A stretch of DNA of 31,193 nucleotides, taken from assembly GCF_000003605.2 (NCBI RefSeq), contig NW_003118439.1, positions 14,591-45,783 on the forward strand, written 5' to 3'. The stretch is from Saccoglossus kowalevskii (taxonomy: Eukaryota; Hemichordata; Enteropneusta; Harrimaniidae). Positions 5,646-31,193 of this stretch are shown here, piece by piece. Within the stretch, counting starts at the first letter, position 1. Every line of letters begins with the position of its first letter. The position numbers and the translations under genes are program-made. Below the pieces are notes generated by a model. That model worked only from the letters and a program-made list of their open reading frames with translations, made no database searches and was not told the origin of the DNA.

Positions 5646-5821
5646 TAATTAAAATCTCGAATACTGCTGTGCTTGTAGCCAAACCAATATTTCTTTATTT
5701 TATAATAAATGTTGAGAAGATGCAATATCAGACAACATTATATATTCTTAACTATTAACATTGTCCCTTTTATCTGACGTGGTTTCCTTCAATCCAAAAC
5801 AAAATAGAAATTCTTCAAATT

Positions 5822-6007
5822 GGGGATGCCCGGTGGCCGAGGGGAAGACGTGTAGTGGCGTGAAGCTAGGCGATTAGGTGCCGTACGCGAGCGCCGGTTC
5901 GAGTCACGCACGCAGTACGTATTTACTATAATTAGACATAGTCTTTACCTTGCCGTTTATTCGGTGTTATTTGCTTACTTTACTTCCTATGTCGACAGCA
6001 ACTATGA
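5822..6007 (+). mobile_element. tRNA-derived SINE, copy 1
   Basis: The head carries RNA polymerase III internal promoter boxes. The A box is TGGCCGAGGGG at 5834-5844, as in tRNA-Ser/Leu type sequences. The B box is GGTTCGAGTCA at 5896-5906. A tRNA-unrelated tail runs to 6007. All 186 bases are identical to copy 2, which indicates recent duplication or two recent insertions. No clear target-site duplication or poly(A) tail is visible. Confidence 0.75.
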
Positions 6008-6190
6008 GTTTAAAAATTATTTCTCAGTACTTATTCACTGTTAAAATGCTGTACCATTACTTTCACCATCCTACTACAGCCAGATCTGAAGGCCTTTGCC
6101 GCATTCTGGCCATGCTGTGTGGCGCGTATCGCGTGGACGGGTTTCACGTTCTCTGCACGTAATAAGCTCGGTTATTAAGCATCCTTTTTT
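6008..6190. other. 183-bp spacer between the SINE copies
   Basis: It carries no gene. Open frames cross it on both strands but lie mostly in repeat sequence. If the SINE pair arose by tandem duplication, the unit would be 369 bp (SINE plus this spacer). The sequence after copy 2 does not resume the spacer sequence, so the second unit would be partial. Confidence 0.5.
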
Positions 6191-6376
6191 GGGGATGCCC
6201 GGTGGCCGAGGGGAAGACGTGTAGTGGCGTGAAGCTAGGCGATTAGGTGCCGTACGCGAGCGCCGGTTCGAGTCACGCACGCAGTACGTATTTACTATAA
6301 TTAGACATAGTCTTTACCTTGCCGTTTATTCGGTGTTATTTGCTTACTTTACTTCCTATGTCGACAGCAACTATGA
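6191..6376 (+). mobile_element. tRNA-derived SINE, copy 2
   Basis: It is identical to copy 1 over 186 bases at an offset of 369. The A box is at 6203-6213 and the B box at 6265-6275. Its tail lies 77 nt past the stop codon of the minus-strand gene at 6453-8296. Read on the minus strand it supplies AATAAA at 6330-6325, a possible poly(A) signal for that gene. Confidence 0.75.
6325..6330 (-). promoter_or_regulatory. AATAAA poly(A) signal candidate inside the SINE
   Basis: On the minus strand this is the first canonical hexamer downstream of the stop at 6453, about 125 nt away. The same hexamer recurs in SINE copy 1 at 5956-5961. Confidence 0.35.
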
Positions 6377-11677: not shown

Positions 11678-14600
11678 TCAGGTAATGACGGCACTTCCGA
11701 CTGCCTCGCTGACGTTGGCATATGACGTAATCAGTTTCACAAACTCTGTAATAAAACATATAAGCAAAAGTGCGTTAAAATATGCTAGTTTTAAATTTTG
11801 CAGAGAATGTTATGTTTTTTTTTAAATTTTATGAAAATAGAAATGTGGGGCTTTTTAAAACTCGTCGTCACGCGGATCTAGAGGGGGCAGGGGAGGCCAC
11901 CCCCCCCCAACGATCATTCATATCATCGGGATTACGCATAGCTTCTCTGCGATTCACGCTTCGTAAATTTTAAGCGAAGCTTGGAACCCCCCCCCCCCAA
12001 TACATTTTGCTGGATCCGCCCCTGCTTCAAACTCAGCTAAAATGAAATCGACCATGACACTGTGTTGCTACTTTAATGTCTTTTCTCATGTGGATATTCT
12101 ATGGATGTTTTGTGTCGCCTTCATGCAATGGTGTGGCTCTTCAAGAATGCAAAAAGAACTTTATTTTTATTTATGTGTTTATGATAATTATCATCTTTGA
12201 CCAGAATGCAAACATCTTTTTTTTATTTTACATTGATGTTCGTTATATCAATTCTGACACAAATACCAAATTATACAATGTGTACAATGAACCGAACAGT
12301 TTTTGTGAAAACTCGTTCAAACGGGGTATTTTAGAAAGAAAGAATATTATAAAAATCGGGGTGAGGGCGCTCTTACCTTCGTAGTTAACTTTTCCTTCTG
12401 AATCAGCGTTTGCGTCTGCAACCATTTCATCCATCTCTTCCTCTGACAATCGTTCTCCCATAGTGGTCATTAGATGTTTCAATTCATCCACCGATATAAA
12501 TCCCGTATTTTCAGTGTCGAAAATTTTAAATGCGTCGTTCAGATCTTTGTCAGTCGTAGTCTCATTAAATTTTCCCGCCATCATCATGAGGAACTCTGGG
12601 AATTCTATACTTCCGCTTCCTGTGATAAAAAAATACACAAATTCCGGATCTGAAAAAGTTGATTTATTTTCAGTATCATGATTTATTTTATAATTTCCTA
12701 TCTAGTTAGGATATTTCCCATCGCAGGCACCCTAACCGGAACGACCACCTGTTGATTCATTGAATGTGTCACGGTACATGTAATAACCTTATGTAATAAA
12801 AAACAACATTTAGTAAAATGCAATTAGCAACATTTATAACTAGCATCTATAAAATAGATCTTGCCATGCGTCACATTCTGACTGAATAGAACCCCAGACT
12901 AGCTACTAGTTTGAGATAGAACCCCCCCCCCCCAAAAAAAAAACGAGGGTCACGATTAGCTTACCATCAACGTCTACTTCTTCTATCATCTCTTCTACTT
13001 CCTTGTCAGTTGGATTCTGACCCAGTGACCTCAACACGGTTCCCAATTCTTTGGCGTTTATCGTACCATCGCCGTCAATATCAAACAGTGAGAACGCCTC
13101 CTTCAATTCTGAATACCAAAAACAACAAAGTCATTATTTGTTGAGTTGGATTACAAGTAGTCTCGAATTTATGCAAATTATTGTTCGACATTTGCCTTAT
13201 ATGGATTTGCTCGAGCTAAACACGATATGTACTTGAACTGCACTCGGTATGTTCTGTACTCGGCCACTCATATATGCATGCTATTTCGTTCATAATGTTA
13301 CCAAAATGGTTAAGCACATGCTACTTCCTTTTCATGTTCCTGTTGTACCCTAGACATTGGTACATTGCATGAGATTTGAATGAAATTTACTACAATTTAC
13401 ATTTCGTTATGGAAACTGACTAAAGAGGGCCGATGTTAACGATCATCTTGTTTTTTTTTTTAAAAAATAGTTCACGCATGATTAATGTGATCTGTGTCTG
13501 ATGTATCGCCAATCGTCAATTTTAGCTTGGATTAATATTTTTAATTTACATTTGTGTGTACGTGAGACCATAAACGTAACGGTAGGTGCCGAGTTCCAAT
13601 GACTCGGGCCGTCCACTGCCATATTAGACTCCGTTTACATGTACTTCCGTCAGAAGGAACGTATTACATCTGTACGTTTCATGATGAATTACTGACAGTA
13701 CTGTTATACCTTGCAGCCTGACACCCTCGTCTCAGGGCGATAGTTTGTCATTCAGTGTGTAAAACAAGCGCCTTCTGTTGTTGAATTAACTAATACAAGT
13801 CACTTTAGCGTCAGTATCATCGGGAGCGTCGTCACCTGCGCACGCGCGGGAATTGAGTCCCAAGCGACGATAACAACACGCGCTAAAACGCAAAGGTTCA
13901 TGGGTAAACAATGTAAACAATGACACGCTATGGCCATCTGACGCATGCGCAGTTGACGACTCTCACGTTTTAACGTAGACGTATGTCGTGCCAATTTTCA
14001 GGGATGTAAATATAAAGATAATGAGAATGAATATTATTACTTTAAGCCTCCCATTTCAAGAAGTTGATGTAGATCACCATCATATCACGCGTGACTTTGT
14101 GAGTGGACGTCAACTGGAAGTCAAACAAAGCGGAAAACAAAAACCATGGTGACTATTAATCATAATACCGTTGTGAATCGTGCGTCACTGTTCGCAACAA
14201 ATCTTCCGTCAAGAAACATTTTTTTTTTTATAAAAAAAAAAAAGAGAGAACATAACTACGTGTCGTGCGTAAGTAATTGCATCTGCTTCGGAAGCTTTTA
14301 TTCCGCCTTCTGTCATTATGGACGCACTTTAGTTTTCATTAGTGTGTGTATTATACTTGTAGACGGACGTTTATAATGCTGGATACAGAAATAGTAGCCA
14401 CGTTGACGTCACTCGTTTAGAAACACTGTACTATTGGTTGTTTACGTTGGTTTGCAAAATCACGGTCGTCAAATTTCTTTTAATTTTTTAATTGTACTTT
14501 TCGGACGTATGATATAATACTAGTATTGTGTACAGTATAGCAGAGTTGTGAATAATAATGTTATATGAATACGAAAGTAACCCGAACCACGTTTGCTGTT

Positions 14601-19191: not shown

Positions 19192-19241
19192 NNNNNNNNN
19201 NNNNNNNNNNNNNNNNNNNNNNNNNNNNNNNNNNNNNNNNN
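19192..19241. other. Assembly gap (50 N)
   Basis: Fifty consecutive undetermined bases. The size is probably nominal. Adjacency of the sequence on the two sides is therefore an assembly claim, not seen directly. Confidence 1.
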
Positions 19242-22852: not shown

Positions 22853-25800
22853 CTACCACCACCATGAGTTATCATCAGGAGTCAGCATATCAGATGCAGT
22901 GTCTATTGTGTATTGTATTAGCGGTATCAACCCAATAGCGGCCTCACAGTTATTCCAATGATGACGAGTTCCCTGACGTTCGGCAATTGCTGGAAAGGTG
23001 TCGTACTGTTTACTGCTATACAGAATGTGTCTGGAAATCAACAAAAAAATCAATAGTTATTTTCTTTAATGAGTTGCTACCAATTATAGTCCAATTACAT
23101 TGTTCTTATTAAAATACAATATCAAACAAAATTATTTAAACAAGTTCTCAGTTACTCATTCAAAATTATGCACATCACATTTTTAAAAAAACAAAAAAAA
23201 ACCATGAATAAATCGAATATCTGAGGACCAGAATGTAAACTTTTGTTTGACTAAAGTTGTTTGGACGTCACCAAGAATCAATAGACCAATTAATGGACAT
23301 ACACATGTATATACACAATCCTTGTATATATTCTTTACCTTGGTGTTCCCACAAGGCTAATTACCACATACCTGTAAGTGTCACTCCCATAATACCTTGT
23401 GTCTGGCACCAGAAAACTTCTCTCTAGGTGAGTCAGTAGGTCATTGACCATGCGTAGTTTCATCGTCTCGTCATAGATTTCTGAGTTTGAAGTCACATCA
23501 ATATTGAAGTTTTTGGTAATATTTTCAAGCCTTGCCACTGCATTATTCACTGTGTCTGAAAAAGAGGAATCAGAAAAGAGTTAAGGTCATGTAGTGTCAG
23601 TGACATTGATTCAATAGAATAAACATAGCCTGTGTATTTAAAATCAAGTTTTTAGAACATCAAAGTCAAAGTTTATCATCCTCCATAAGCCACATAAATG
23701 TTTTCATAATTTTTTCAAAAATTTTGATCGAGACTTGTAGGCAATGGGAAATCATGTTCATTTGAGTCCGAAATTAAAAAAAAAAATGGAAAAGTTTTAC
23801 AAAGAATATCTTTTTTTTTTTTTTAGATTTTTTTTTTCAACTTTATAGTGACCTCAATGAAATATGTACTATATTGCCTGTAAATAAATTAATTGAAAAC
23901 GTTATGTTTTTATGGCTTTCGTCATGGGCTATGATGAGATGAAATTTGGGTTAAAACATAAATATGTTACTGTAACCTTGGAGACCAAATTTTACTATTT
24001 TTGTGCAAATAAGTGTGAAGGGAGAGGCTAGAATTAATATAAACTGCCAAATGAGTCCCAAGTAACAAACAAAATGAATAAAGTATGTCATTAATTGATT
24101 GTACTATTGTGATGACATTTCCAGCTGTTAACGAGACCAGAATTAATTCACAAAACAGGTACAGAAATGTGTTTCAAAGACGTCCGCAATCACAGCTTAG
24201 TTATACACTAGTCATTTTTGTAGCCATGCCAGCGTATTCAAACATCAAACACTATGGTCTGTAACCCCAACCAAAGACGGCATTTACATTCTCCAATAAT
24301 TTAAACATGCAAATTGATTCGGCTTTGAGCATTTCCAACCAAGCCAATCAGACTTAAGATCATAACATCCAAATTACAATGGACCAGTACCATGATTATG
24401 TTTTGTTGACATTCCAGACAACTGATAATTCTTAGCTTGTGTGTCACTATTAATATGTTTGCAAGAACAATGAAGTAATTGATAGGCATGAATTACCCAG
24501 CATTTGTTCTATAATTATTTTCAAATTCGTCAAAATATCCCGGTAGGACACATACTGGTAAAGATTTATAAATCTAAAAATAAACACAGTATTTACAAAG
24601 AAAACAGCTGTATGTGATATATGGCTGGCTTTAATTCACTCTGACACATATGATATAATACACAGCAAAATCATATTTCTATGTAATATTCAGTTATAAA
24701 AACTTCATCTTTTATCACCAATAGACCCTGATCGAATTAATTTTTTTTTTCAAACTGTTTAATGCGATAATTAGTTTAAAAATGAGAGTTTCACATTTTC
24801 TGTAATTTTCACTGAATACAATATTAATTTTGGACCAAACAGATGAAATGTGATATTGCTTCTAGTTTTTGATCAATTAAATTGTATTTTTTTGCAACAT
24901 TTTAAGTGACAAGAGCAGACTATAAATAGAACTATTTTGTGGATGGTGCCTGAAGTTGACACTTTGGTACTCAAAAGGTTAATTACCATTTGAATTCCAT
25001 CAAACTTGGTCTAATTATATCTACTCTGCTATAATTTCTTTTTTAATTTTGTAGCAAATTAACACAATTTCTTCATTTTATATATAAGTCTTGTTCAACA
25101 TTTTTTGATAAAAAATAGTATACAAGACTGTCTGTAAAAAGCTGACAAATTAGTTGATTTATATATATTCAAAATATTTAGATGCAAAGAATCAAATATC
25201 AATTACTTTACACATTTTAATCAAAATTTGTTTATTTCAATTTAGTTGCAATCTTAGGAATTATTTTATTGATAGTAAATTTCAGTGGAATTTTTTTATT
25301 ATAAAAATGAATTTTGGCAGACCATGATAAAAAGAAATGTAATAGCTGATTGAAGTGAAAGTAGAAATTATAGTGATATTATACATGCGAGTATTTAAAT
25401 TTGATTTATACCATAAATTCACATCATGGGTGTACTCACAGCTTTTTTTTTGTGAATAACAAATTATCTATTGATAAATCATTCTTTTAATACAAAATCA
25501 TAATCCATTGTAATTACAAGTTCAAATATCCAATTTTCATTTGTCAACAAATGAAGTGGAAGTTTGGGGTTGGATTATTAACAAATAATCTGCCCATATT
25601 AGTCACATATGATCAAGGACTCGCACAACACACAACTGTCAGTACTTGCTGTTACCAAGTGAACCTTGATTATATGCGCATATATTGAAATAACAACTCC
25701 ATTTACTAACCTAGAGTGAAGTTTTTCTCTGCCAGTGTATCTCCACATTTATTGTCCAGTTTTGTTAGGTAGTCTTTAATTAACTGATTGGTATATGTGT

Positions 25801-28800
25801 AATCCCACTGTAGCATTGAGGCATCAGCCACAGATAATAAAAGCCGAGCAAATAGCTGTGATATGGCCTTATGGTATAAGAAATTAACATCATGGTATTT
25901 CGGGGCAGTATAGTACATATCAACCTGGAAATATGACAATACAGAGGGTAAATATTAATTAGCTTGACATGCAGTATAGTACATATCAACCTGGAAATAT
26001 GACAATACAGAGGGTGAATATTAATTAGGTTGACATGCAGTATAGTACATATCAACCTGGAAATATGACAATACAGAGGGTGAATATTAATTAGCTTGAC
26101 ATGCAGTATAGTACATATCAACCTGGAAATATGACCATACAGAGGGTGAATATTAATTAGTTTGACATGCAAAACAGCACCAGTACATTAGTTTCATAGT
26201 TTATTTATATGTAACAATGAAAAATGTATTATTATTGTATTTATTTGTGCCTAATATTTGTTCAGAAAACATTTTTTTATTGACTTTTTTTCAAAGCATT
26301 TTTCAATAAACAATTGAGAAGAATGCAATGTTTTTGGACAATTACATAAACAGACTATCATCACATGCTCTGAAAAGAATGCATAGACATCAATTTTAAT
26401 TAATATAACTCACAGCTTTACACTACGATCACCAGCAATAATGAAAAACATCTCTAATTATATCAAAATATACAAATCTTGTTATTTTTACCTGTGTGTT
26501 GTTGAATGGCACGTAGTTAATATTAATTGTTGCAATGCCTAGTTTGTGTGGAAATACTAGATAATCACTGGCAGTACCAAACGTTTGAATCGGGTTTTCA
26601 AACGACTTTGTTTTCACCATCCAGTTAGTGTGCATTGTGACACCTTCCTTGAAATTCACTGGATCAAGCAGCTGAAAAAAACAAACAAAAAACAATTAAT
26701 AAAAAGCTATAAACATATTGCTTGTTGATGCAGTTTTTCTCTTCATTTCTGTTTTCAGCAGGTGATGTGTGGAACCGTAATTTTTCTAGCCAAGTTTTGA
26801 TGTGAAATTTCATTAATTTTTTCTGTAATTTCTCTTTCTTAAATTTGAACAAAAATGAACATAATTTCCCTCTGGCTACAGAATTTTACCAAAACATATT
26901 AATATACATTTTTTGGTGAAAGATGACAAAAGTTGGCTCAAATGATTAATAAAAAAACAAACATAAAATTGAATAAATTTTCTTACATTACAGCAACAAT
27001 AACAATCATTCACTCTTCTTTTTTTTTGAATAAATTACGCATATAGTCAGAAATCCGACTACATTATAATAATCTGGGTACTGTATGTGGCACTGCAGCT
27101 CACCAGCCACCATGTCTATTCATTAAGAAAACACGGTTTTACAGACAGAGTCAAAAATTAAAACTCTGTCATCTTCTTCGTTCTGCAACATTGCATACAA
27201 GCCCAATATGGGTCCTATTGTTAAAGCCATTGTTTGTTTGCCACAAATTAAAAGTTGTGACAACTGTTGCAACAAACACGCAGTAAACACGCGAAAACTG
27301 TGCAGCGCTGTAAATTCAAAATATGATTGACTGTGAAATTAAAGTCATAGTCATATTATCATTGATTTTTATGTTCTGGAAATAATAATTATTATTCACC
27401 ATTTTTGCAGTAGATGTAATAAGTCTAGATGTAGCAGCAGTTGACTCTACATGCAATGTGTAGTCACCTTGTACAGCCATATCCAGATCAATGTATACAA
27501 CAGCTTTCTCCAATAACTTCAATCTGTGTTCCTGTAAAAAACAATGCTTGCATTATTATGCAAAAAATGTGTCTATCAATGCTGCCTTTGTCGTTGATGA
27601 TAAACACCTAATAATCCTAGTACTAACTATGGTACATTCACCCATTCTATAGATCCCAGTACCGGTACTACCTACCTCAGCCCATTCTATAGATCTCAGT
27701 ACTACCTACCTCAGCTCACTCTACAGATCTCAGTACTACCTACCTCGGCCCATTCTATATATCTCAGTACTACCTACCTCAGCCCATTCTACAGATCCCA
27801 GTACTACCTACCTCGGCCCATTCTATATATCTCAGTACTACCTACCTCGGCACATTCTATATATCTCAGTACTACCTACCTCAGCCCATTCTATATATCT
27901 CAGTACTACCTACCTCAGCCCATTCTACAGATCCCAGTACTACCTACCTCGGCCCATTCTATATATCTCAGTACTACCTACCTCAGCCCATTCTACAGAT
28001 CCCAGTAGTACCTACCTCAGCCCATTCTACAGATCCCAATACTACCTACCTCTGCCCATTCTATAGATCCAAGTACTCCATGCATTACACCCCATGAACA
28101 CATCTTGATAGTCCTCTTAGGATACCAATTCTCATCCTGGATGCTATGAAGATTCCTTGCTAGTTCCAGCATCATTGCCGTACCATTATAATTGTCCATG
28201 ACACCACGGTGACTACCCATCATAACAAACCGATCTGCGTTGTGATGAAGGTCAAGTATACTGTTTTAATTTATCATGTTACAAGTGTCAGTGTTCTTGG
28301 AAATACTGAAAGTCAAAGTCTCAGTTGTTGTTGTGCTATTTACTTTGATTTAACATACAGGTTTAATTTATAGGGAAAGTATGATAAAAATATTTGTTCA
28401 AAATGTGTGTTTTCTCAAAAACTTTTCATCTATTCTCCGTATAATTTCAAAAAACTATGAACTTTGAACTAAATATACATAATTGCTGATAATTTCAATG
28501 GTGACGTTTGTTTTTAAACTGAAATGAACAGTATTCAGATTGTCATAAATATTTCTACACCAAATAATTTTGATACTAAATGTACTGTATTTATTTGAAG
28601 CGCATCTCTAATAGAAGCTCACATAAACAAAAAATCTCATTTGTTGTACCAGGGTATATACTGAACCATTGAAATATTACTCGTTTTCGACCATACAAAC
28701 ACCTTGGTTATCTATGTAAGCACATGTGCTACTAATAGAGCAAATACAGTATCAACCTTGACACCACAAGTTCCCTCTTTTCATATCATATTTATAGTCT

Positions 28801-30371
28801 GCATAGTCTGAAGATTGGGATAAAAATAACTAAATTTTGAGTAAAAACATTGACTCAAATTTCTGTCTCTGAAATGTCTGCTGGGTCCAAAATTAGGGTT
28901 CATTTCCAGAAATATTGAAGACTATAAGAAAAGAACAGCAGGACAATTTGTGTGAGAAAGTCTGGGGGTGAAAAGGTTAAAATGTAAAATATTCTTTAAA
29001 CTTCCATGTACAAATGTGTATTAGACCAACCTCTAGTGCTATCAGCGTTTCCTTTCATTGTAGCTATAACATTGTATAATGTTTTTATCTTGGGTTTATT
29101 ATTCACTTCCATGCGTACAATCCAAGGCGCTTCCTCTGAAAATAGAAATGCAGGCCATAAGTCTACAGTAGCATTGAGTTTAACATTATAATGTCGTCTA
29201 AGTTTCACATCAAGAGATACAATGCCCAATAATGCCTAATAATTAGTTCTTAGCCATGTGCTAGGCATGCAAACTGCTTATTCAATCAGAAATAAGCAGT
29301 CCTTGACATGTAGAAACCACACATGCTTATTCATGAATTTCTACAAGGTAATATACAAGTACCAAGCCTTTCCGATTTTGCAGTACCGATATTTCTTCAA
29401 ATCAAACATTTCCTGCACAGTTATTGTGTGATACCGGGAGATACATACTTACAATGAACTTACAATGATCATAATGGAAGACTTGACGACTTACTCAGAC
29501 AGAAATATTATGTGACACTGAATTTAGCTGCAGATGATTGGACAAAGGTGTTTATACATACTGTGACTTTTCCTGCCTGCATGGTAGGTTAGGTTTAACC
29601 CTCCTTGCCAGTGATCTGGGGCAATCTTGCCACTCATATTAAGCATTAAATGGAAAGCATCATCCGCTGAGATTGGCTGGACCAGGAATGGAGGGTAAAT
29701 GACCCACAGCTTGATGTGTATCCATCTAAAGAAAAATTAAATATTCAAATATTAATATTTTATTGTATTCAATTATTGCAGTATGTCTATATATTGTATT
29801 ATATTTTTATGAGTTTATGTAAAGTATTGTATTATGAGGTTATGAAGATGTGTTGATGCAATCCCGTAATGCCTGAGTACATACTTTGCGGCAACCCTAT
29901 TTTAGCTTGTAGAGAAAATTTGATAAGAGACAAAAGCTCAAAATGCCAACAAAACAACTGTTTTGCATTATGCAATGACGAGATCATATTTTAGTTTTGC
30001 CCATTATTGATTTTAGTTAAATGTGAACAAAAAAAAGAATCTTTAAATGTGATAAGAAAATAAGAAAATGTTGAACATTTAAACGAATACTGATACAACT
30101 TTTATATAAATGACATTGAATTGCATTAAGATTATTATTAACATGTTAATTATTCACATTGCAAATTTCAACACCATTATGATACCAATTAGCCCCCATG
30201 CTTGCGAGAACACTGTAGAGAATAACGCTCACCTTTTGCTGGATATCCTGAGGTAAACGGATCCTCAATACCATGTGGAGAGGCATGCCAGTCACGACTT
30301 GATATCTTTCTGTCTTCGGGATCTAAATAAAACAACACTCCCTTCAGACCATACTTCTCCGCTAATCTCAC
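22853..30371 (-). CDS. M28B peptidase-like protein (NAALADase/GCPII/transferrin-receptor family), 3' nine exons, probable pseudoenzyme
   Basis: Exons (minus strand): 30214 or 30233 to 30371, 29562-29725, 29031-29135, 28050-28234, 27400-27531, 26492-26671, 25711-25924, 23372-23555 and 22853-23030 (stop TAG). The order follows glutamate carboxypeptidase II: protease-associated region (KGVLFYLDPEDR, DPFTSGYPAK), then PPFLVQPISADDAF, MEVNNK, the M28 core (GSHRG, RRTI-like KRTIKMCSWG, GSIEWAE) and the helical dimerisation domain (LRMVNDLLTHLERSF, YRHILYSS). About 500 residues are seen; the N-terminus lies beyond base 31193. Compared with GCPII, His377 (GSHRG), Asp387 (MDNYNG) and Asp453 (IDLDMA) have counterparts. 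The catalytic/zinc Glu424-Glu425 pair is replaced by MH (SWGVMHGVLGS), His553 is replaced by Tyr (MYYTAP), and the HxxxxD loop is shortened. Loss of proteolysis is likely, as in transferrin receptor or NAALADL2. It should be a type II membrane protein by family. Confidence 0.92.
23031..23371. other. Last intron of the M28-like gene
   Basis: GTATGT donor and TTTCCAG acceptor (minus strand). AT-rich, nothing else seen. Confidence 0.8.
23556..25710. other. Long AT-rich intron of the M28-like gene
   Basis: Donor G|GTTAGT at 25710 and acceptor TTTTTCAG at 23556-23558 (minus strand), joining phase 1 to phase 1 (GAC codon). It contains A/T homopolymers near 23778-23835. A protein-like stretch at 24497-24573 does not fit the reading phase of the flanking exons. 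No gene is otherwise seen. Confidence 0.7.
25905..26170. repeat. 66-bp tandem array (four copies) spanning a 3' splice site
   Basis: Read on the minus strand, the unit is 46 nt of intron end (ATGTCAAGCTAATTAATATT and on to CATATTTCCAG) plus the first 20 nt of the exon that starts at 25924 (GTTGATATGTACTATACTGC). The four junctions fall at 25924, 25990, 26056 and 26122, exactly 66 apart and nearly identical. The first is the true acceptor of the exon at 25711-25924. The other three lie in the intron and have the same polypyrimidine stretch and CAG. The long minus-strand open frame across the array is a by-product of the period being divisible by three. Confidence 0.95.
26171..26491. other. Intron of the M28-like gene, part upstream of the 66-bp array
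   Basis: Donor CAG|GTAAAA at 26491-26486 on the minus strand. AT-rich, nothing else seen. Confidence 0.7.
26672..27399. other. Intron of the M28-like gene
   Basis: Donor ATG|GTGAAT and acceptor TTTTTTCAG on the minus strand. No repeat or RNA gene recognised. Confidence 0.7.
27635..28076. repeat. 34-bp tandem array (12 copies plus one decayed) spanning a 5' splice site
   Basis: Read on the minus strand, the unit is the last 27 nt of the exon ending at 28050 (codons for VLGSIEWAE) followed by GTAGGTA, the first 7 nt of the intron. Copies repeat at exactly 34 nt from 28076 down to 27669: a landmark C falls at 28057, 28023, 27989 and so on to 27683. All 12 carry GAG|GTAGGT. A thirteenth copy near 27635-27668 has a 6-nt insertion and has lost the donor. 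Small variants (tata/taca, ccc/ctc) alternate among copies. G-S-T-E-W-A-E is conserved across the peptidase family, so the exon is the source and the array is derived. Confidence 0.97.
28235..29030. other. Intron of the M28-like gene
   Basis: Donor G|GTTGGT at 29030. The acceptor is taken as ACGCAG at 28238-28235, because it joins in phase as STR-D-RFVMMG and matches the family spacing. A nearer-to-consensus AAAACAG about 20 nt upstream would shift the frame. AT-rich, nothing else seen. Confidence 0.65.
29136..29561. other. Intron of the M28-like gene
   Basis: Donor GTATGT at 29561-29556 and acceptor TTTTCAG at 29138-29136 on the minus strand, phase 1. Nothing else seen. Confidence 0.7.
29726..30213. 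other. Intron of the M28-like gene with unresolved donor
   Basis: The acceptor TTTCTTTAG at 29727-29726 requires a phase-2 donor. GTGTTC at 30213 fits the frame but is weak. The stronger GTGAGC at 30232 is phase 1 and would need an unseen micro-exon. The family alignment allows either. Confidence 0.5.
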
Positions 30372-31193
30372 CTATGCAGTGTTGATTTGAGGGGTAAATG
30401 GATGAAGGAGATTATAAACTGGTTCTACATATGATTCAAATTAATCTGACACCAGAACAGATCAGGGTTATTCAGTTCTATTGCCTGATGTAATTTTCAG
30501 GATAATTTGGAAAGAATGATATTAAATCCTGTTTGGTTAAATTTTTAACTTTTGCTAGACAAACTTTTATTCTGACGCAAATTCAAATCTAGGATTGAGA
30601 ACACTGGGCGGGCTACCTGCATCATTTACTGCTACTTTCTATTATATTTATCTAAAAGATCCACCCACTGCAAAAGTTAACCCATGGGCGATGTTTCAGT
30701 ATCTAAGCGATCTTTTGGTGCAGCAAAAACAAACAAGCAGCCTGTTGACTGAGATAGCTTCGCTGTTAGCAATGCACATTTCAATTAAGAACTGAAGATA
30801 CCTATATGTATAATATCAAAGCAATTGGACTTGCAGTTTTTAACAATAAGTCGAAAATATCACTTTTTACCAAAAATGACAAAAACATTCATCAAAATTA
30901 GAGAATTGAAGATATCATCATGAAATGAACAAATCTAAGAAAGGTTGACATCAGCCGGTTTAACGAAATTTCACACACACAATAACAGTGTCACACGGAT
31001 TAAGCTTTGTGAAAAGCAAGCAATTCTGCAAATAAATAATGTTGTGACATCCAAGTTGCATCCCAAAAATTTATATTATGCCATTACATATAAGACAATT
31101 CGTACTACTGCCTTCAACGTCATTATTATCTGACCATGATCACATTCTTTGTAACTGAAATGTGTACATCACCATCAAGAACACAACATGATG
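30372..31193. other. Intron or upstream part of the M28-like gene
   Basis: The acceptor CATAG at 30373-30372 opens the first exon seen (phase 0). I found no further exon in the remaining 820 bases; the next one should encode the start of the protease-associated domain. The plus-strand open frame at 30595-30795 has no recognised relative. Confidence 0.55.

Follow-up and report, generated by a model that had tools for sequence, protein, structure and literature searches.

We found that an M28B gene (GCPII-like) of the hemichordate Saccoglossus kowalevskii carries two minisatellites built from splice junctions: the donor of exon 4 is present 12 times (5' boundary) and the acceptor of exon 7 four times (3' boundary) within the 31,193-nt stretch of DNA analysed here, hereafter referred to as the window. 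The units of both arrays span an exon-intron boundary, as do those of the lancelet arrays known as mirages, for which the founding paper is reportedly Canestro 2002. We consider it likely that the arrays are mirages as well and arose through duplication over a splice junction and subsequent minisatellite growth, with the outer sites being used and the other copies being near-neutral. The presence of a donor array and an acceptor array within one gene supports this explanation.

Two exon-edge arrays in one gene

The donor array (array 1) lies on the minus strand at 28076..27669 and comprises 12 full head-to-tail units of 34 bp (TRF: 27665-28077, period 34, 12.1 copies, 90% matches, score 644). 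Unit alignment confirmed the original prediction that each unit joins the last nine codons (27 nt) of exon 4 to GTAGGTA, that the period is 3n+1, and that the true donor is followed by 11 further copies of GAG/GTAGGT (the slash marks the exon end); this nonamer is identical in 12/12 units, and the longer GAG/GTAGGTA is likewise unchanged in all of them. The same exonic context had also been claimed for every copy, which holds approximately: each decoy deviates from the authentic unit at 3-6 of its 34 positions, while the decoys share subtypes (unit 5 equals unit 9, and units 4, 8 and 10 are alike). Exon 4 closes in phase 0 with VLGSIEWAE, its last nine codons; exon 5 begins at 27531, and the intron between them consists mostly of array.

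The gene holds another exon-edge array (array 2; 25905-26171, four units of 66 bp), overlooked in the original prediction, which repeats an acceptor. Each unit contains a CTAAT branch-like site (identified by eye) and a pyrimidine stretch, then TTTCCAG joined to 20 nt from the start of exon 7. Short matches, identified by eye, flank the units of both arrays (AGTA in array 1, TGC in array 2). These two are the only TRF arrays in the window with a score of at least 50. The coordinates are given in Table 1.

Table 1. Positions in the window of the M28B gene model and of its two arrays
Feature	Position	Strand	Remark
Gene model, nine window exons	22853..30371	-	made by eye; open frame to TAG
Exons 1-3	30371-30233, 29666-29562, 29135-29031	-	
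Exon 4	28050..28234	-	185 nt; last 27 nt = exonic part of array 1 unit
Exon 5	27400..27531	-	132 nt; carries frame on from authentic donor
Exon 6	26671-26492	-	
Exon 7	25711..25924	-	214 nt; starts at authentic acceptor
Exons 8-9	23555-23372, 23030-22853	-	
Host intron of array 1	27532..28049	-	518 nt, phase 0; 27635-28049 = array
Array 1, unit 1 (authentic exon end and donor)	28043..28076	-	last exonic base 28050, GT 28049-28048
Array 1, units 2-12 (11 decoy donors)	27669..28042	-	
Last exon-like bases, units 2-7	28016, 27982, 27948, 27914, 27880, 27846	-	
Last exon-like bases, units 8-12	27812, 27778, 27744, 27710, 27676	-	
Array 1, partial 13th unit	27635..27668	-	without donor; array end
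Array 2, four 66-bp acceptor units	25906..26169	-	TRF and unit alignment
Array 2, AG ends	decoys 26123, 26057, 25991; authentic 25925	-	

The nine exons give a frame of 1422 nt (473 codons) that ends in TAG, has no internal stop and keeps consistent phases, against 35 stops in one of the alternative frames and 44 in the other. This frame is open only with the outer splice sites at both arrays. Certainty is lowest for the acceptor of exon 2, which was chosen to keep the frame; further 5' exons would lie past the end of the contig, which is 45,783 nt long. The joined translation of exons 4 and 5 matched Peptidase_M28 (3.1e-9) and PDB chains of glutamate carboxypeptidase 2 (best 2.3e-19), while the whole model protein matched GCPII, GCPIII, NAALAD-like and transferrin receptor chains (best 1.6e-45) and contains Peptidase_M28 and TFR_dimer domains, both above cut-off.

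The protein lacks the E-E pair that we take to be the active-site pair (SWGVMHG vs SWDAEEFG in GCPIII; AEEYG in three of four paralogs and KEYG in the fourth), and its alignments contain no counterpart of the YPLYHS stretch, which presumably holds the last zinc ligand. Given these two losses, the residues of an active GCPII/M28B peptidase appear incomplete and the protein is probably a pseudoenzyme. A dispensable or dying gene, in which splice-damaging duplications persist under relaxed constraint, would be in keeping with these features and with an exon 2 acceptor that seems by eye to have shifted, with a loss of ~20 residues. We nevertheless regard this reading as unlikely in view of the 473-codon open frame with its consistent phases and of the two domains scoring above cut-off.

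Several other features were observed in the window. Two 188-nt direct repeats (5820-6007 and 6189-6376) are 100% identical and 369 apart; they include a tRNA-like stretch by eye and may represent a small retroelement or a pair of SINEs. Exons of a calmodulin-like EF-hand gene (one exon tested) lie at 12245-13130 on the minus strand.

Predicted effects of the decoy sites

As originally predicted, use of any decoy donor would truncate the product: 11/11 decoys lead to one shared TGA, codon 189 in the frame of 473 codons, located 133-473 nt ahead of the end of the next exon. A stop in such a position would be expected to provoke decay. All 11 decoys would give the premature stop required of a poison-exon/NMD switch. 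The decoy acceptors of array 2 would also break the frame (3/3, TAA at codon 294).

Predicted U1 pairing ranged from -11.8 to -12.0 kcal/mol across the 12 array donors and was weaker at each of the gene's seven remaining donors (-3.7 to -9.6 kcal/mol). Pairing is so similar within the array that the authentic site cannot be told from the decoys by donor sequence alone. The decoys are not weak donors, which counts against the mirage explanation. Local RNA accessibility was 0.030 at the authentic donor vs 0.0014-0.049 at the decoys, a value that ranks second of 12, and hiding of the decoys by RNA structure was rejected as unconvincing. The 10 donor columns of the unit contain 0/9 of its variable columns; the probability is 0.025 for that particular stretch and 0.32 for some invariant run of that length anywhere in the unit, so that the invariance is, post hoc, a weak hint of possible constraint on the donors.

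One possible role for such sites is a splicing rheostat or poison switch, in which some transcripts would use decoys, stop at codon 189 and be destroyed, in a share that depends on copy number. The single stop shared by all decoys and its distance from the end of the next exon would suit such a device, as would a set of donors that are alike, the strongest in the gene and invariant in their donor columns; in addition, the part of PMC5389562 available reports that the choice of a 5' site is influenced by multiple U1 occupancy. On the other hand, a stop is the default outcome of reading intron sequence, the array is absent from 4/4 paralogs, and lancelet mirages are reported without disturbed splicing, as far as excerpts of PMC3087553 and PMC3902484 go. 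We thus judge a rheostat quite unlikely. A wider version, in which exon-edge arrays recur among deuterostomes and array 1 is a copy-number-tuned brake on productive mRNA that varies between individuals, is very unlikely.

Judged from the sequence, the alternative already given in the original prediction, namely neutral copies with use of the outer donor, would fit best. The first step would have been a tandem duplication, with short matching sequences as its probable end points, that took in the exon end together with its donor; slippage or unequal exchange would then have raised the number of units. The spliceosome may keep to the outermost authentic site at each array, that is, the first of 12 donors and the last of four acceptors, because exon definition would favour the donor and acceptor that bound a real exon and pair across it. 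A rule by which the first transcribed site wins fits the donors. It fails for the acceptors, whose decoys precede the authentic site in transcription, whereas exon definition would account for both. Intronic copies would survive as long as splicing continues to select the authentic outer site; they would leave with the intron and be close to neutral.

Findings in vitro qualify this neutrality. In the available part of PMC5389562, duplicated 3' sites are described as splicing inefficiently and at the distal site only, and several 5' sites as affecting choice and not efficiency, unless they lie very close together and cause steric inhibition. By analogy, the inefficiency of duplicated 3' sites and the steric inhibition at 5' sites would speak against full neutrality of the copies. 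The distal position is, at the same time, the side on which the authentic acceptor of array 2 sits.

Origin of the arrays

A GCPII-stretch query of the assembly returned eight matches, one of which lay in the M28B gene; the remaining seven fell at four further loci, of which C4447 carries two and C2949 and C131 one each. In 4/4 of these paralogs, the exon ends W-V-E/GT at the same codon and in the same phase as the M28B donor, with a single donor, and no local copy of the donor edge was found in them (best 17-20 of 36 matches). For C2949 and C131 the intron was seen at both ends, and for the two C4447 loci at its donor side only. An upstream exon match on C4447 (49944-50102) reads through two stops. 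Since four paralogs share a single-copy donor at this codon, the intron predates the array, and sequence comparison identifies array 1 as a derived expansion in an old intron, new to the M28B gene. With the model protein as query, only its own gene was found in the assembly (9/9 matches). A Peptidase_M28 search of the assembly yielded seven places, none of them the M28B gene, and this search is thus not sensitive to the clade; its best place, C1762, did not look GCPII-like.

These comparisons also bear on the birth of introns through tandem duplication of an AGGT-containing segment, a route reportedly described in PMC4974935 and discussed in PMC3087553. Array 1 shares with this model the tandem duplication of a segment holding AG/GT. 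In the model, however, the intron is new and both of its boundaries come from the duplicated segment, whereas the acceptor of the array 1 intron (27532) lies outside any unit and the paralogs have the intron without the array (both ends in two, the donor side in two more). Intron birth from array 1 is almost certainly not the explanation, and we rejected it on the basis of the shared intron position.

Collapse or stutter in the assembly could in principle have produced the array or its copy number; two other arrays inspected in the assembly abut N runs, and, according to excerpts of PMC3087553, the draft genome of the lancelet contained an aberrant assembly of the BflGb6 mirage. Such an artefact is highly improbable here, as the units of array 1 differ from one another and form subtypes, and the sole N run of the window lies at 19192-19241.

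We then compared each of the 16 gene junctions in the window with 900 nt of adjacent intron, using 60 shuffles per junction. Only the exon 4 donor and the exon 7 acceptor had a local intron copy (scores of 34 and 40), while the other 14 of 16 scored 7-15, none above its own 60-shuffle maximum. The exon-edge copies at both arrays are not due to chance. Placed at random in this gene, a 34-bp unit would span a junction with a probability of 0.071 and a 66-bp unit with one of 0.14, which makes two of two arrays on junctions unusual (~1%) and not extreme.

The original prediction had further proposed a search of other genes for exon-edge repeats. We sampled 74 kinase exon edges (37 exon matches in 15 stretches), 49 p450 edges and eight other edges in the window; the edges are profile-match ends +-60 nt, so that misses are possible. 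No junction-spanning copy was found at the 123 kinase and p450 edges or at the eight window edges. A single kinase edge (L067, 30/36) exceeded the similarity threshold; inspection revealed a simple repeat beside the donor and it was counted as a miss. Compared with the sampled edges, the 2/16 junctions of the M28B gene gave a Fisher P of 0.011, or 0.10 without the exon 4 donor junction, and the gene is thus not supported as a hotspot of exon-edge arrays. Local copies were also present at 5 of 150 random positions in p450 loci, which indicates that exon-edge arrays need no special cause. In this small sample, arrays at junctions were no commoner than elsewhere, in line with a neutral origin.

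The array 1 unit was rejected as a dispersed repeat: a search of the 572-Mb assembly with a 20-nt core of the 34-bp unit gave 12 matches at the locus and two other places at 2 mismatches (6 matches for the reversed core), and the core is tandem only at the locus. We also scanned for a triple-AGGTAAGT pattern (gaps 46-76), with the reversed pattern as control; the scan was swamped by satellites and showed no excess of tandem donors (600+488 matches vs 1358+481 reversed). At L076 and L077, the two listed places that were inspected, tandem arrays carry AGGTAAGT about every 55 or 41 bp, abut N runs and have no recognisable exon. Other tandem sequences lie near p450 genes, including a 65-bp minisatellite (L045 3125-3570, L058; about 7 copies, 99%) that lies downstream of a p450 exon and an array unit beside two p450 genes (L031 3004-3288, L035 2623-3304), which the window at ~30770-30900 resembles by eye; the latter appears to be a dispersed repeat that also goes tandem.

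Relation to known mirages and to splice-site competition

In the original prediction, no described class of repeat was thought to be an exon-edge cassette, a view contradicted by the lancelet mirages. Excerpts of PMC3087553 and PMC3902484 describe these as minisatellite-like tandem copies of an exon-intron boundary, either 5' or 3', many of which keep AG/GT splice signals. The genes concerned are Adh3, the globins BflGb6 and BflGb9, troponin C and PGBD5, the last two being from PMC3902484, and the edges of the clusters are said to escape homogenisation (PMC3087553). The S. kowalevskii arrays are alike in consisting of tandem boundary units, at boundaries of both types, and in having an edge unit unlike the inner ones: the authentic unit of array 1 stands apart from decoys that share subtypes, as if spared homogenisation. 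They are unlike lancelet mirages in their hemichordate host, in the 12 donors at 34 bp and in the combination of donor and acceptor arrays in one gene. Mitochondrial sequence of the assembly agrees with this host. In contig C4830 (17,037 bp), COX1 was identified by Pfam and the remaining mitochondrial genes by eye. TGA encodes Trp, and the nine ATA codons in the aligned stretch of COX1 face Ile or Val (seven), Leu (one) and Met (one) in the best PDB chain. AAA falls, by eye, at positions typical of Lys; across the presumed gene frames AGG appears a single time, in a COX3 frame that is too long, and AGA a few times, twice at positions where Ser would be expected. COX1 is encoded on the strand opposite to that of COX2 and ND1. 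Excerpts of PMC3121625 give the same code (Ile, Lys, -, Ser) and the same COX1 inversion for S. kowalevskii, and Met for ATA in cephalochordates; excerpts of PMC2697986 are consistent with this. The pattern marks an enteropneust hemichordate, most likely Saccoglossus, and a lancelet (Asymmetron) was rejected as the source because of gene order and code. The reported range of mirages is the cephalochordates, and in the literature searched, not all of it aimed at mirages, none was recorded under that name outside lancelets. Given the hemichordate host of the arrays described here, mirages occur outside cephalochordates. Their extension from lancelets to hemichordates makes a search across deuterostomes worthwhile.

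In recent human paralogs, minisatellites with a mean unit of 30 bp touch intron boundaries and cryptic splice sites, according to the part of PMC2812944 available. These alter exons and introns and give new introns, whereas the M28B repeats sit in an old intron. For splicing in vitro, excerpts of PMC8283771 indicate that multiple U1 may bind early, the surplus being removed when U2 joins. The competition substrates of PMC5389562 and PMC8283771, as far as excerpted, resemble the M28B arrays in offering several equal sites to one partner; the arrays differ in being natural, in having as many as 12 sites, and in a reading frame that requires the outermost. With 12 donors of equal strength and four acceptors, and the frame kept by one of each, the M28B gene amounts to a natural competition experiment on splice-site choice.
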